64,000 nucleotides of DNA from Methanolobus psychrophilus R15 (lineage in GTDB: Archaea; Halobacteriota; Methanosarcinia; Methanosarcinales; Methanosarcinaceae), in NCBI GenBank assembly GCA_000306725.1, contig CP003083.1, positions 310,001-374,000 of the forward strand, in the 5' to 3' direction. The notes under the pieces were generated by a model. It did no database searches and was not told the origin of the DNA. It saw only the letters and a list, made by a program, of their open reading frames with translations. Shown here piece by piece: positions 9,094 through 14,814 of this stretch; within the stretch, counting starts at the first letter, position 1, and every line of letters begins with the position of its first letter. The position numbers and the translations under genes were made by a program.

Positions 9094-9116
9094 AGAGAAG
9101 GTTTATTGCCTTCTCT
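9094..9116 (-). terminator. Hairpin plus T-run after the PEF-CTERM gene
   Basis: On the minus strand AGAGAAGG-GCAATAAA-type sequence forms an 8-bp stem (AGAGAAGG with CCTTCTCT, 7-base loop) followed at once by TCTTTTTTT. The stem overlaps the stop codon of the surface-protein gene, so the last codons are part of the hairpin. Confidence 0.65.
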
Positions 9117-10632
9117 TAAAGAACAGAGCTAGTCCTAGAATTGCTATCATGGGGAGTGCAATTGTGGGGAACTCTGGGATTTCTTGAGAACCACCATTTC
9201 CTCCATTGTTGCTGCTGCCATCGCTGCAAGCCATCCATATGCTTTCAGGTGCTCCTGGCAATCTTGTAACGTGGAGAACAACAGAATATCCATTATCATT
9301 CTTCGGTAGCACACCATCCCATTCACAATCAACGATAATTTTTACATATTGCACTGTCTGCTGATTACCGGGTGCCCTGTCGACCTGGGTTAGCATTGCA
9401 CCAAAACCCGCATTGCCCTCACCTTTATCTTCCTCCCATTCCCATTCAACATTTGTATTATCAGACTCAACACCTAAAATACAATCGGGATCGATATTTA
9501 GCAATATTGTCTTGATGTTTCCAGATCCGATTGGTTCAAGTAGCTCAATCTCAATTGAGTTTGTAAATGTTTTAACAGAAATGTTGATGTTACCATTGTA
9601 ATATTCGTTTGTATTTTTCTCTGTCAGGTAACAGGTTGTTATTGGGGATACACTCACCACTTGTGCAGGATTTCCATTCAATTCAAATATGAAGCTTCCC
9701 GGATAAGAATAGATTATTCCATTATTATAGACAGGCCCCAACAAACCGCCGTAATTGTGAATGGTATTGTGATTGTAGACGTAAAAAGACAACGTCCCTC
9801 GATTGAACAGTGTGCCACTATTGCTAATGCTGTATCCGTCTACCGTACCGTTGTTATAAAAATTGCCACTGTTCATTACTTCGCCTATAATATGTTCGTT
9901 GTGGAAAGTGCCGGTGTTACTTACATACATTTCTACCGTTCCATAATTGTAGACAATTCCGTGGTTATCTAAACCCCATGCCAGCGTTCCAGTGTTGCAA
10001 ATGGTCCCCGTATTTTGAATCTTGCCGTTGAACATACCGTGGTTATATATTTCTCCACTTCCCTCCACTGTGTAGCTCGAATTAAACACCCCGGTGTTGT
10101 TAATTGTTCCTTCATTTCCCACATCAAAGTGCGTAGAAAACGTGTTGAGGTTATTCAGCATTCCGTTGTTTGTTAACCTTTCATAAATGGCCATGTGCCC
10201 AGCGTTATCAATGGTGCCATTGTTTGTAAGGTACCATATGCCAACTGCGCCACCTGGTAACACACTAAGGTTATTGTAATTCAGAAAACTGGTGGGTGCT
10301 CCCCCGAAAATTCCAGTTACCTGCATGTTACCATAGTTTCTAACAAAGAGTGAATCTCCATAAAAGGTTCCACCCAACTCAAGTGAACCGCCATTGTCAA
10401 TTACGATCTCGGGCTGATTCATCCCTTGTAGGGCCCCACCGGGCTCCACTATTAGTTTCCCACCCGGCTGGATTATGAATGGGCCGTGATCAATATATAG
10501 GATATCTCCGTCTCCTACCACAAAGGTTTCCCCGTCAGCAATTGTACCCGGATTTGTCAATTCGGCTGCACTTACCATCCCACATAGCGAGATGAGCACA
10601 GCTATTACAATCATATATATTTTCATTTTCAA
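9103..10632 (-). CDS. Secreted beta-solenoid surface protein with PEF-CTERM anchor
   Basis: The 509-residue protein starts with a signal peptide (about 1-22, ending MVSAAE). Residues about 110-325 consist of some ten loosely repeated units of 16-22 residues built on N-x-G-T-(IVL)-x-N-x-G, as expected for a right-handed beta-solenoid. A globular domain follows (about 330-470). The end has IPEFPTIALPM, a hydrophobic stretch and KRRQ, a PEF-CTERM sorting signal (PEF at 486-488) handled by an archaeosortase. GGAAGGT precedes the ATG. It lies inside the mobile element as probable cargo: a surface or adhesion protein. Its intactness inside an otherwise decaying right half is notable. Confidence 0.85.
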   Translation of the reverse strand: MKMKIYMIVIAVLISLCGMVSAAELTNPGTIADGETFVVGDGDILYIDHGPFIIQPGGKLIVEPGGALQGMNQPEIVIDNGGSLELGGTFYGDSLFVRNYGNMQVTGIFGGAPTSFLNYNNLSVLPGGAVGIWYLTNNGTIDNAGHMAIYERLTNNGMLNNLNTFSTHFDVGNEGTINNTGVFNSSYTVEGSGEIYNHGMFNGKIQNTGTICNTGTLAWGLDNHGIVYNYGTVEMYVSNTGTFHNEHIIGEVMNSGNFYNNGTVDGYSISNSGTLFNRGTLSFYVYNHNTIHNYGGLLGPVYNNGIIYSYPGSFIFELNGNPAQVVSVSPITTCYLTEKNTNEYYNGNINISVKTFTNSIEIELLEPIGSGNIKTILLNIDPDCILGVESDNTNVEWEWEEDKGEGNAGFGAMLTQVDRAPGNQQTVQYVKIIVDCEWDGVLPKNDNGYSVVLHVTRLPGAPESIWMACSDGSSNNGGNGGSQEIPEFPTIALPMIAILGLALFFKRRQ

Positions 10633-11501: not shown

Positions 11502-12941
11502 TCACATCGCATCTTTTGAGGCCTTGGAGAAATATTCGATGGCCTGCGCCAGTTCCTCATGATCTTTGGCATATTGCTCAATATCCATGTTCTTAAGATA
11601 AGCTTCACATGCCTGCACCAGGGCTTTTGCTCCCCCTTGAGTTCCACCAGGATGGGCATGCACGCCTGATCCCATAGTGGTAATGAAATCCACGTTTCCC
11701 ATGACATCGATAAAGGGTTTCAGCCTGATGGGATTAAGCCCGCCGGAAACGATCGGGCAGCATTTCTTCATAGCTCTCCAGCTGTCATCCTCCAGGATGG
11801 CATGGTGAGCTGTATCCTCGTTCACAAGAGCTATGACATCTTTATCGAGATCCGGTATCTTTGACCAGGACTGATCAAAGAAGTGCCCTTTGGACCTCAG
11901 GTACAGGATACCGTTCGCGGCAACAACATCCTCTTGAGGGGTGCCTTTCATCTTGCCAACTCCTGCCGTACCGGTATGGATTCCGGAGGCACCTGCAAGA
12001 CGTGCGAATTTGGACAGTACCAGTACGGAGAATCCGAGCGGGTTCTCAGGTCTTGTGAAAGCCCCGTGGCCTGCCCTGTGGAAATGGATGAAAACACCCG
12101 GATATCTTCGCCTGAGAGTCTGGACAGCCATCCAGCCGGCAGTTATCCCGTCTATCAGGAATGCATAGCTGCCGGGTTCAAAGCCTGCATTGACGATCAT
12201 CTCACATCTTTTTATCATGGTGTCAAAATCAGCAGCTGAGACATTGAAAGAGTGGACTTTCTTTTTCCCGGTTTCCTTTACTGCCTTGTCCATAGCTTCC
12301 TTGACATGTTTCACCATCTTGTCATATGGGCAGAAATCCTGGTTTGCCTGAGGCTCGTCGTTCTTGACGAAATCTCCCCCTCCAACCCAGAAATCATAAC
12401 AGACCTCAGCGTATTCCGCAGAAGTGAGTCCCATCTTTGGTTTCACGATAGTTCCAAGAATGGGCCTGTTATATACTCCAAGATATTTGCGCATATCATC
12501 AACAGTATAACTGGGACCGTCATACTGCTCAAGCATTGATGGCGGGAACCATACATCCATTAATTTCAGGGCCTTAACTTCCTTCATTCCCAGGATATTC
12601 CCTACTATATAAGTCAGGATGTTCTGGACATTACCGCCTCTGTCAAAGAGTCTCCATGGATAGGCTATCCATACCAGGTCCCTTTCCAGATCAAGCTGGT
12701 AAACAAGGGCATTCATCACTTTTGAAAAAGGGGTCTCGGTGTTTACTTTGAAATTTGTCCCCGTAGATGATTCTGCTGCAACTTCCGCAGCAGTCTGAAG
12801 CATATTTAACCTTCCTTCCGGAACTAAATGAAAGACCCCAAGTAGATATTCCCCATTCCTGGGGTCGGCCAGCTTAAGATCCACATAGCCCTGTTGTTTG
12901 GGATTCAGCGATTGTACCAATTGCTCTTCAGTCAGGCTCAT
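11502..12941 (-). CDS. rbcL: Ribulose-1,5-bisphosphate carboxylase/oxygenase, archaeal form III
   Basis: The 479-residue protein has all active-site motifs in order: GTIVKPKMG, the carbamylation loop GGGDFVKNDEPQ, HFHRAGHGAF, loop 6 GTAGVGKMKG and the phosphate-binding SGGLNP and GSGVHAHPGG. Sequence character is the methanogen form III type. I chose the ATG giving MSLTEEQLVQSLNPKQQ, as in Methanosarcina homologs; the frame is open further to a TTG at 12962 with no better signal. In methanogens form III RuBisCO acts in AMP/nucleoside salvage or in a pentose-bisphosphate branch rather than the Calvin cycle. It is a single gene with no small subunit or partner nearby. Divergent repeats and a candidate RNA lie upstream. 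Confidence 0.95.
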   Translation of the reverse strand: MSLTEEQLVQSLNPKQQGYVDLKLADPRNGEYLLGVFHLVPEGRLNMLQTAAEVAAESSTGTNFKVNTETPFSKVMNALVYQLDLERDLVWIAYPWRLFDRGGNVQNILTYIVGNILGMKEVKALKLMDVWFPPSMLEQYDGPSYTVDDMRKYLGVYNRPILGTIVKPKMGLTSAEYAEVCYDFWVGGGDFVKNDEPQANQDFCPYDKMVKHVKEAMDKAVKETGKKKVHSFNVSAADFDTMIKRCEMIVNAGFEPGSYAFLIDGITAGWMAVQTLRRRYPGVFIHFHRAGHGAFTRPENPLGFSVLVLSKFARLAGASGIHTGTAGVGKMKGTPQEDVVAANGILYLRSKGHFFDQSWSKIPDLDKDVIALVNEDTAHHAILEDDSWRAMKKCCPIVSGGLNPIRLKPFIDVMGNVDFITTMGSGVHAHPGGTQGGAKALVQACEAYLKNMDIEQYAKDHEELAQAIEYFSKASKDAM

Positions 12942-13076
12942 AACAGTGATAACAGTCTGCAATCTATTTCAGTTTTTGGAATCACCGGAAATGGAAAAAT
13001 ATGGCTGCAAACATACAGCAGCTACAGATAGAAGTCTGCTGAAAAAGAATAAATTAAGTGTTCTGTTCATTATCCA

Positions 13077-13132: not shown

Positions 13133-13175
13133 AATAATTCAAGCATTAGAAAAGCAATTAGAACAGCATTTCGCA

Positions 13176-13318
13176 AGGAAAGGTGAGGCACCTGGAAACC
13201 ACCACGCTTTAAGGCACCTCTGTCCTTGTATATCCAGAATAATCCCCGCTGACCGGATAAGTCACTTAAGATCCGCGAGTTATTCCCCAACCCGCAACAG
13301 ATAATAAGTACTTTTTTT
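13176..13318 (+). ncRNA. Candidate structured RNA, copy 1
   Basis: The segment shares a 30-nt block (13191-13220, CCTGGAAACC-ACCACGCTTTAAGG-type) with copy 2 at 28 of 30 positions. It also shares the 3' part CCCGCAAC, TA-TAAGT and TTTTTTATTTAACCT. The conserved block lies in the loop and 3' arm of a stem (GAGG..CC with GG..CCTC). A short hairpin (GCGAGTT/AACCCGC) precedes the final run of seven T's, as in an archaeal terminator. No open frame spans it. It is on the plus strand between the RuBisCO gene (minus) and the 3' end of the Msr-type regulator (minus). Confidence 0.6.
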
Positions 13319-13435
13319 ATTTAACCTAAACCCGTTGCAATTTGATACTAAACTATATATTTCAATGTAATTGAAAATTCAATCGTCATTTTACGAACAA
13401 ATATTCGTGTATCTGATTGAGAACAGACATGTCAC

Positions 13436-14221
13436 CTAAATGGTAGTTATCAATGTCGAATCCATTTTATAGTATTCAAAGAGGTCTTTTCCCCATTCAA
13501 GTGCACTCCTGCTATAAGAGATCAGTTCTTTGTTATCATACCATCCATCCTTTTTCAACATGGTCACTAAAAGACAATAGTCATTCAATGAAAAGAACAC
13601 AAAGCGAAAAGGTTTGCAATAGAGGCGGAACTCAATGTTACTGTTCTCCAGTAAATGCTGGAAGTCACTGGGATTATGCGTCCTCAGTTTCTCGAAGAGT
13701 TCTTCCGAGAGGATCATTGTAATCTTTGCGCCATTTCGCGTCCATTGATCAAACAGATCCATAAAATTGGGATGAAATATTGTAGTAACAGCGCACATCC
13801 TTTCTGATGATGATGTCGTTTCAGTGAACTCCTTGTTCAGTTCATGGATGTTGGATATCGATGGCTCATTTATTGTATACGGCTCTAGCTCCCGAATCCT
13901 GTTCAGCATTTCAGGAGGGAGAAAACCCAGCTCTCGCTCTCCCCAGAAATCAATGTTATGATCCAGTACATTTAATGTGGCTACAAAAGGCGCCATTTCA
14001 TCGACAATGATCTTTGATATAGAAGTTAATTCATATTTATCGCCGCGGCGACTGATCAGATAGTTCTCTTCCAGTATCTTCAATTGTGGAAGTAATGCCT
14101 GCCGGGTGGTATTCATGGATTGCAGCAGCGTTGTTATCTCTTTAGGCCCTTCCTGCAGCAAAAGCAATGAGCTTTTCCGTTTCTCAGACGCAAAGATGAC
14201 ATCAAGTAGCGGTTTCTTCAT
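13436..14221 (-). CDS. Msr-type transcriptional regulator (wHTH + DUF1724/FilR1)
   Basis: A 261-residue paralog of the regulator at 11-796, identical in length: winged helix at about 1-90 (LLQSMNTTRQALLPQLKILEE) and DUF1724/FilR1 domain at about 110-255, ending WGKDLFEYYKMDSTLITTI. The family regulates methyltransferase genes in Methanosarcina; the targets here are unknown. It is bracketed by two copies of a candidate structured RNA: copy 1 ends 118 bases beyond its 3' end and copy 2 begins about 145 bases before its start on the opposite strand. That arrangement recalls the M. mazei sRNA162 case, in which an sRNA acts on neighbouring regulator mRNAs, but no sequence relation is shown. Confidence 0.87.
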   Translation of the reverse strand: MKKPLLDVIFASEKRKSSLLLLQEGPKEITTLLQSMNTTRQALLPQLKILEENYLISRRGDKYELTSISKIIVDEMAPFVATLNVLDHNIDFWGERELGFLPPEMLNRIRELEPYTINEPSISNIHELNKEFTETTSSSERMCAVTTIFHPNFMDLFDQWTRNGAKITMILSEELFEKLRTHNPSDFQHLLENSNIEFRLYCKPFRFVFFSLNDYCLLVTMLKKDGWYDNKELISYSRSALEWGKDLFEYYKMDSTLITTI

Positions 14222-14340
14222 AAATATCCTCTAACCCGACATTCCATCTCACATATGACCAATATTAATATGTGACCATAACTAACCTTAATAGAATGTC
14301 TTTATACCTATTTATCTGACATTATGCTACTTAAAACAAA

Positions 14341-14350
14341 TTATATAATA
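14341..14350 (+). promoter_or_regulatory. TATA-like box for candidate RNA copy 2
   Basis: TTATATAATA, nearly palindromic, lies about 25 bases before the start of the structured segment. Because of its symmetry it could also contribute to minus-strand transcription toward the regulator. Confidence 0.45.
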
Positions 14351-14365
14351 CTGACAAGATAGCTT

Positions 14366-14513
14366 CAAGGTAGATTGGGACGCCTGGAAACTACCACGCT
14401 TTAAGGCGCCTCAATCTTACGAATCCGGGATGTTCCCCGACATCTCTTAAGTGATCCACTCCCGCGTTTGCGGGCACCCCACAGCCCGCAACGCATAGTA
14501 AGTCACCTTTTTT
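14366..14513 (+). ncRNA. Candidate structured RNA, copy 2
   Basis: Three stems can be drawn: GTAGATTGGGACGCC with GGCGCCTCAATCTTAC around the conserved loop (block 14383-14412); GATGT with ACATC; and a strong GCGTTTGCGGGC/GCCCGCAACGC hairpin with an 8-base loop, followed by GTAAGTCACC and TTTTTT. A TATA-like box precedes it at the right distance. No open frame fits. The stem sequences differ from copy 1 while the loop block is kept, as in a functional RNA. It diverges from the Msr-type regulator gene. Confidence 0.65.
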
Positions 14514-14814
14514 ATTTAACCTGAACCTTGATTAATCTGACACTGAGGCTGAAGATGATATTAAATGCTATCTTCATGTAAGCAATGTTTTCTAGCGAGG
14601 TTAAATCTTCAAACGCTTCTTTGATGGCTACCCGGTAATGATCTCAGTCTTGAATATAACGCAACAGAAGAGTAAAGAAAAAGATATGAAGCATGCAATT
14701 ATACAACTAACTGGGAAATCAAAGTGGTTAGCATAAAGTAACTTGAATTTATGCGAGCTGTCTTGCTGTATAGGTATGTCATTATAGGAATGAAGCTCAT
14801 GAGGGAAAATCGAA

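Follow-up and report, generated by a model that had tools for sequence, protein, structure and literature searches.

The window, a 64,000-nt stretch of the Methanolobus psychrophilus R15 genome, contains two plus-strand segments, copies A and B, located on either side of a gene for a FilR1/Msr-type regulator, with the gene for the RuBisCO large chain (rbcL) next to copy A (Table 1). Copy A is divergent from rbcL and convergent with the FilR1 gene, and copy B lies upstream of the FilR1 gene and diverges from it. A preliminary description of the locus had assigned these neighbours correctly, and the 30-nt block that it reported to be shared by the copies is indeed identical at 28 of 30 positions (13191-13220 and 14383-14412, both on the plus strand). 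With up to three mismatches allowed, a degenerate pattern covering both blocks matched twice within the window, against zero matches expected from 100 shuffles, and the repeat is far above chance. Both copies also carry the common 3' end given there (CCCGCAAC, TAAGT, a T-run and ATTTAACCT), and the sequences of hairpin 1 (hp1) are unlike each other while the pairing is retained in both. Compared with shuffled sequences, copy B folds much better (z = -4.2) and copy A no better (z = -0.9); hairpin 2 (hp2) of copy A is partly decayed relative to genome G056, where the stem reads TATCCGG/CCGGATA. Near rbcL, the minus strand encodes a predicted surface protein (9103-10632) with a C-terminal PEFPT...KRRQ sorting-type tail.

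Table 1 Features of the locus in window coordinates (R1, covariance model of the RNA family)
Feature	Position	Strand	Basis
RuBisCO large chain (rbcL)	11502-12962	-	flanking gene
RNA copy A, ~150 nt	13174-13327	+	R1 match 13180-13252, E=2e-17; homologue next to rbcL in 6 Methanolobus genomes
Copy A hairpin 1, outer stem CAAGGA/TCCTTG	13174-13179 and 13223-13228	+	sequence
Copy A hairpin 1, loop GGAAACCACCACGCTTTA	13185-13220	+	covarying stem (107 sequences); sequence
Copy A hairpin 2, TATCC/GGATA, CCCC within loop	13231-13259	+	sequence; orthologues
Copy A hairpin 3 region, CCCC loop	13275-13295	+	fold; sequence
Copy A 3' end, T-run and TATTTAACCT	13310-13327	+	common to most copies
FilR1/Msr-type regulator gene between copies A and B, 261 aa	13436-14221	-	PF08350, E=1e-27
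Copy B possible TATA box TTATATA, weak	14341-14347	+	sequence; TATA position most frequent in the family (-43 to -48 relative to hairpin 1)
RNA copy B, ~155 nt	14362-14522	+	R1 match 14372-14443, E=2e-19; fold z=-4.2
Copy B hairpin 1, AGATTGGGACGCC / GGCGCCTCAATCT	14372-14417	+	covarying stem; fold
Copy B hairpin 2, GGGATGTT CCCC GACATCTC	14427-14446	+	hp2 alignment and covariation
Copy B hairpin 3, TTGCGGGC / GCCCGCAA, loop ACCCCACA	14464-14494	+	fold; hp3 count
Copy B 3' end, T-run and ATTTAACCT	14508-14522	+	sequence; common to most copies

Extent and structure of the RNA family

The segments in the window belong to a multicopy family of non-coding small RNAs, probably transcribed independently, of the genus Methanolobus. 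The initial count of two copies understated its size: the covariance model R1 finds 23 units at ~18 places in the R15 genome (unit threshold E<0.001), and a whole-genome pattern search of R15 gave 15 core copies, 10 of them exact, with zero matches in the reversed control. Over 112 genomes of the taxonomic family, R1 matched only Methanolobus, with 1-31 units in each of 11 of the 27 genomes of the genus, and a second model, R2, built from 107 sequences, returned the same 11 genomes with up to 32 units. When the search was widened to 238 genomes of the class, the 211 outside Methanolobus gave nothing except one weak match in a different family (G202, E=4e-4 over all 238), which we took as chance, and the matches of a pattern scan of GTDB genomes were confined to records named Methanolobus. 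Two IMG/VR contigs that match the loop were likewise set aside as chance, because the loop alone matches and lies inside phage open frames. At the gathering score, Rfam has no match in the window, and the region itself gives one unrelated chance match (E=3.6).

The RNA is ~140-190 nt long, with three hairpins that combine covarying stems with C-rich, nearly constant loops; its linker is rich in C as well, and its end is a T-run. In the 107 aligned sequences, hp1 has 85 cells changed on both sides of the stem, where shuffling gave 32.5 and sliding no more than 15; the corresponding figures for hp2 are 54, 22.9 and no more than 25. The 14-nt hp1 loop, AAACCACCACGCUU, is near-invariant across the family alignment, and CCCC forms the loop of 91 hp2 hairpins, whose stems vary. 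Hairpin 3 (hp3), defined by a stem of at least 6 bp and a CCC-bearing loop, is present in 53 of 104 3' regions against 6.2 after shuffling, with stems such as UUGCGAGC/GCUCGCAA and UUGUGAGC/GCUCACAA, and is followed downstream by the T-run and TATTTAAC. In many copies, the C-rich, single-stranded linker UCCACUCCC separates hp2 from hp3, and two hp1-hp2 units stand in tandem at many loci. That the block might instead be conserved as coding sequence, an alternative raised at the outset, is not borne out: the segments are non-coding because the stems carry compensatory changes and the hp1 loop varies in length by 1-2 nt, which breaks the reading frame. The covariation of the stems, together with the Rfam result, bears out the proposal of a structured RNA absent from Rfam, and we are highly confident that the multicopy family of RNA genes is real.

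Promoters and candidate cold-induced members

Most copies have a predicted TATA promoter of their own. The motif TTTATA was found upstream of hp1 in 59 first units, mostly at -43 to -48, and 37 of the 102 first units, copy A included, have no clear TATA box. Upstream of the TATA box, an inverted repeat of the form YCC-N3-6-GGW occurs in 25 of the 59 promoters over all positive genomes, against 1.6 after shuffling. A TTCC-N5-GGAA inverted repeat upstream of BRE/TATA, for example at 1760-1800 of locus L013, is possibly the 'cold box' of the literature.

By differential RNA sequencing (dRNA-seq) of R15, Li et al. 2015 (PMC5378194) reported 195 sRNAs, among them nine highly conserved ones that were all cold-induced and had a common 'cold box' upstream of the promoter. 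Four small TRAM genes of the genome analysed here match Mpsy_0643, 2002, 3043 and 3066 in order and spacing, which identifies it as that of R15. The nine RNAs thus resemble the present family in coming from the same genome, in being highly conserved and in sharing an upstream motif; the R15 copies described here are mutually similar, with an identical core in 10, and the upstream inverted repeat is a candidate counterpart of the published motif. The nine probably include members of the family, and expression and cold induction of the family are, from this literature, probable. The passages on the nine RNAs deal with neither structure, other species nor linkage to FilR1, unlike the findings here. 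The description of the RNA as undescribed is uncertain, as some copies are probably among the nine RNAs of this study, whose main text gives no sequences.

Association with FilR1 genes and conserved gene order

The R15 genome (3.07 Mb) contains ~32 FilR1/Msr paralogues, including those at 383-769 and 13436-14221 in the window, and FilR1 genes tend to be many in RNA-rich genomes, with up to 57 FilR1 domain matches in G041. Of the 18 RNA places in R15, nine have at least one of the 33 FilR1-domain matches no more than 700 bp away, whereas random placement gave a mean of 0.31 and a maximum of 4, although the loci are not independent because some cassettes are duplicated. At 18 distinct loci in several genomes, the RNA starts 83-90 nt downstream of the stop codon of a FilR1 gene on its own strand (L013, L014, L019, L113-L121, L142, L150, L161, L163, L170, L182, L184 and L189). 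One FilR1-RNA cassette seemingly spans the start of a circular record (L016 3213-3270, genome position 1).

This constant distance would be expected of a cis-acting element, either the 3' UTR or terminator of the FilR1 mRNA or the leader of an adjacent gene. We regard this reading as very improbable, since a promoter lies between the FilR1 stop codon and the RNA, about half of the RNA loci have no FilR1 gene nearby, and the orientation to the neighbouring genes varies, being even antisense to both flanks.

The FilR1 proteins encoded at all 18 of these loci end in -T[EG]L directly before the stop codon, an ending shared by few of the 64 unlinked ones, and their bodies come from distant FilR1 branches. 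Linkage to a single FilR1 clade is unsupported, as the FilR1 genes that have the RNA 80-92 nt downstream occur all across the FilR1 tree (15 changes compared with 16.5 after shuffling). The nucleotide identity of the linked genes rises from ~0.5 in the body to 0.7-0.85 over the last 60 nt, a tail that is partly conserved in FilR1 generally, and at some loci only the FilR1 tail, or a frameshifted FilR1 gene, is found upstream of the RNA. From this pattern we infer that the RNA module and the FilR1 gene end may have spread together by recombination or gene conversion, and that RNA genes and FilR1 genes may swap places through recombination.

The arrangement in the window is found in other genomes as well. 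The order rbcL-RNA-FilR1-RNA-MBL/rhodanese gene is also present in G040 and the order rbcL-RNA-FilR1 in G056; the RNA is next to rbcL in six Methanolobus genomes, and there are positional orthologues at other conserved places too. Judged from this gene order, the rbcL-RNA-FilR1-RNA arrangement of the window predates the species of R15. In G055, FilR1 is missing and one RNA alone separates rbcL from the MBL/rhodanese gene (L168, 2300-2600, compared with 13174-14522 in the window); this RNA looks chimeric, its 5' half being similar to copy A and its 3' half to copy B. By inspection, a deletion through recombination between the direct RNA repeats is the likely origin.

Alternatively, the family could be repetitive DNA (a MITE-like element or a recombination site) that travels along with FilR1 genes and does not function as RNA. 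The apparent chimera of G055, which takes the place of the whole RNA-FilR1-RNA segment, would also suit this view. The high and variable copy number, the scatter of the linked FilR1 genes despite their uniform C-terminal ending and the phage integrases near a few loci point in the same direction. Nevertheless, we consider this explanation improbable: the stems change in a compensatory manner around invariant loops, the promoters are positioned and the ends carry T-runs, gene neighbours are conserved across species, and the flanks are varied, with no common element ends noticed.

Proposed mechanism and comparison with known systems

The preferred reading is that the family consists of stress-induced sibling sRNAs whose C-rich loops pair with G-rich ribosome-binding sites; we give the family and this mechanism jointly about an even chance. 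In this reading, each RNA carries the invariant C-rich hp1 loop, the CCCC loop of hp2, the linker UCCACUCCC and the C-rich loop of hp3. Acting in trans as antisense RNAs, the siblings would be redundant and would use these C-rich loops and linkers to pair with G-rich ribosome-binding sites, probably including those of FilR1 mRNAs; the pairing would lower translation under stress. We propose this mode, which is like that of Listeria LhrC, because fixed C-rich loops and a fixed linker are carried on variable stems, in sibling copies with stress-type promoters.

The FilR1 mRNAs of the window, suggested at the outset as partners of the ACCACGCTTTAAGG loop, contain no pairing site above chance. Likewise, the genome-wide search for complements of the hp1 loop gave, apart from the RNA genes themselves, no excess over the reversed control. 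This counts against the pairing model, and the invariance of the loop is left unexplained by an antisense role. Among RNA-bearing genomes, GGGG occurs in 22 of 79 FilR1 leaders and in 36 of 292 others (p=0.001, uncorrected). After correction by shuffling, the differences in pairing with FilR1 leaders are small (p 0.02-0.06), and reversed motifs share part of the signal. Since these differences are small and partly shared by controls, and since the hp1 loop lacks a complement, pairing with ribosome-binding sites is the preferred hypothesis rather than a result.

The main rival to the pairing model is a protein-binding decoy or scaffold, in which hairpins with C-rich loops titrate or assemble an RNA-binding protein (e.g. 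a KH or TRAM protein), as CsrB/RsmZ do for CsrA. Constant loops on variable stems, the display of CCCC on two hairpins, the doubling of units in tandem and a near-invariant 14-nt loop that has no genomic complement above chance are all in keeping with such a role. We hold it to be somewhat unlikely, as the protein partner is only putative and the linker, which is conserved too, also fits pairing. A more far-reaching reading is that of an archaeal regulatory network: each genome would have 20-30 C-rich sibling sRNAs, mostly transcribed from promoters of their own, that control the set of Msr/FilR1 paralogues and evolve together with it, and recombination at the RNA genes would shuffle the regulator genes among loci. 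This reading is speculative and, in our estimate, unlikely.

Among known systems, sRNA162 and sRNA171 of Methanosarcina mazei (PMC3510493) are likewise methanogen sRNAs of similar size with three stem-loops, and their homologous copies lie near a methanogenesis-related regulator gene. Kinship with sRNA162, to which the preliminary description likened the layout, was not borne out. R1 finds nothing outside Methanolobus among the 112 genomes of the family, so that the RNA is not a homologue of sRNA162 and the layout alone is alike. Furthermore, sRNA162 and sRNA171 are reported only in Methanosarcina, in two copies and with an ArsR-family regulator, in contrast to the multicopy family and the FilR1 regulators described here.

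The closer functional parallel is LhrC (PMC5880928), in which a C/U-rich loop, a single-stranded stretch and the terminator loop pair with Shine-Dalgarno sequences. LhrC is bacterial, has 5-7 copies and has proven target pairing, whereas pairing is a proposal here and no homology is implied. Both families have sibling copies, a C-rich single-stranded loop, a stretch and a terminator loop, and LhrC is stress-induced as the present family is probably cold-induced; as in the LhrC-like functional class, several homologous copies contain C-rich regions that are single-stranded. The Methanolobus RNAs are associated with a protein family, some of whose members regulate the use of methyl substrates, and probably also with the cold response. 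A transcription start site map has been published for the genus, so that expression, redundancy and targets are testable at once, and a covariance model now exists for this RNA family missing from Rfam. Bacterial examples of sibling sRNA families are known; for archaea, little has been described of large groups of related RNAs, and one that reaches 15-32 copies per genome, as in most of the well-sampled carriers, would be unusually large.
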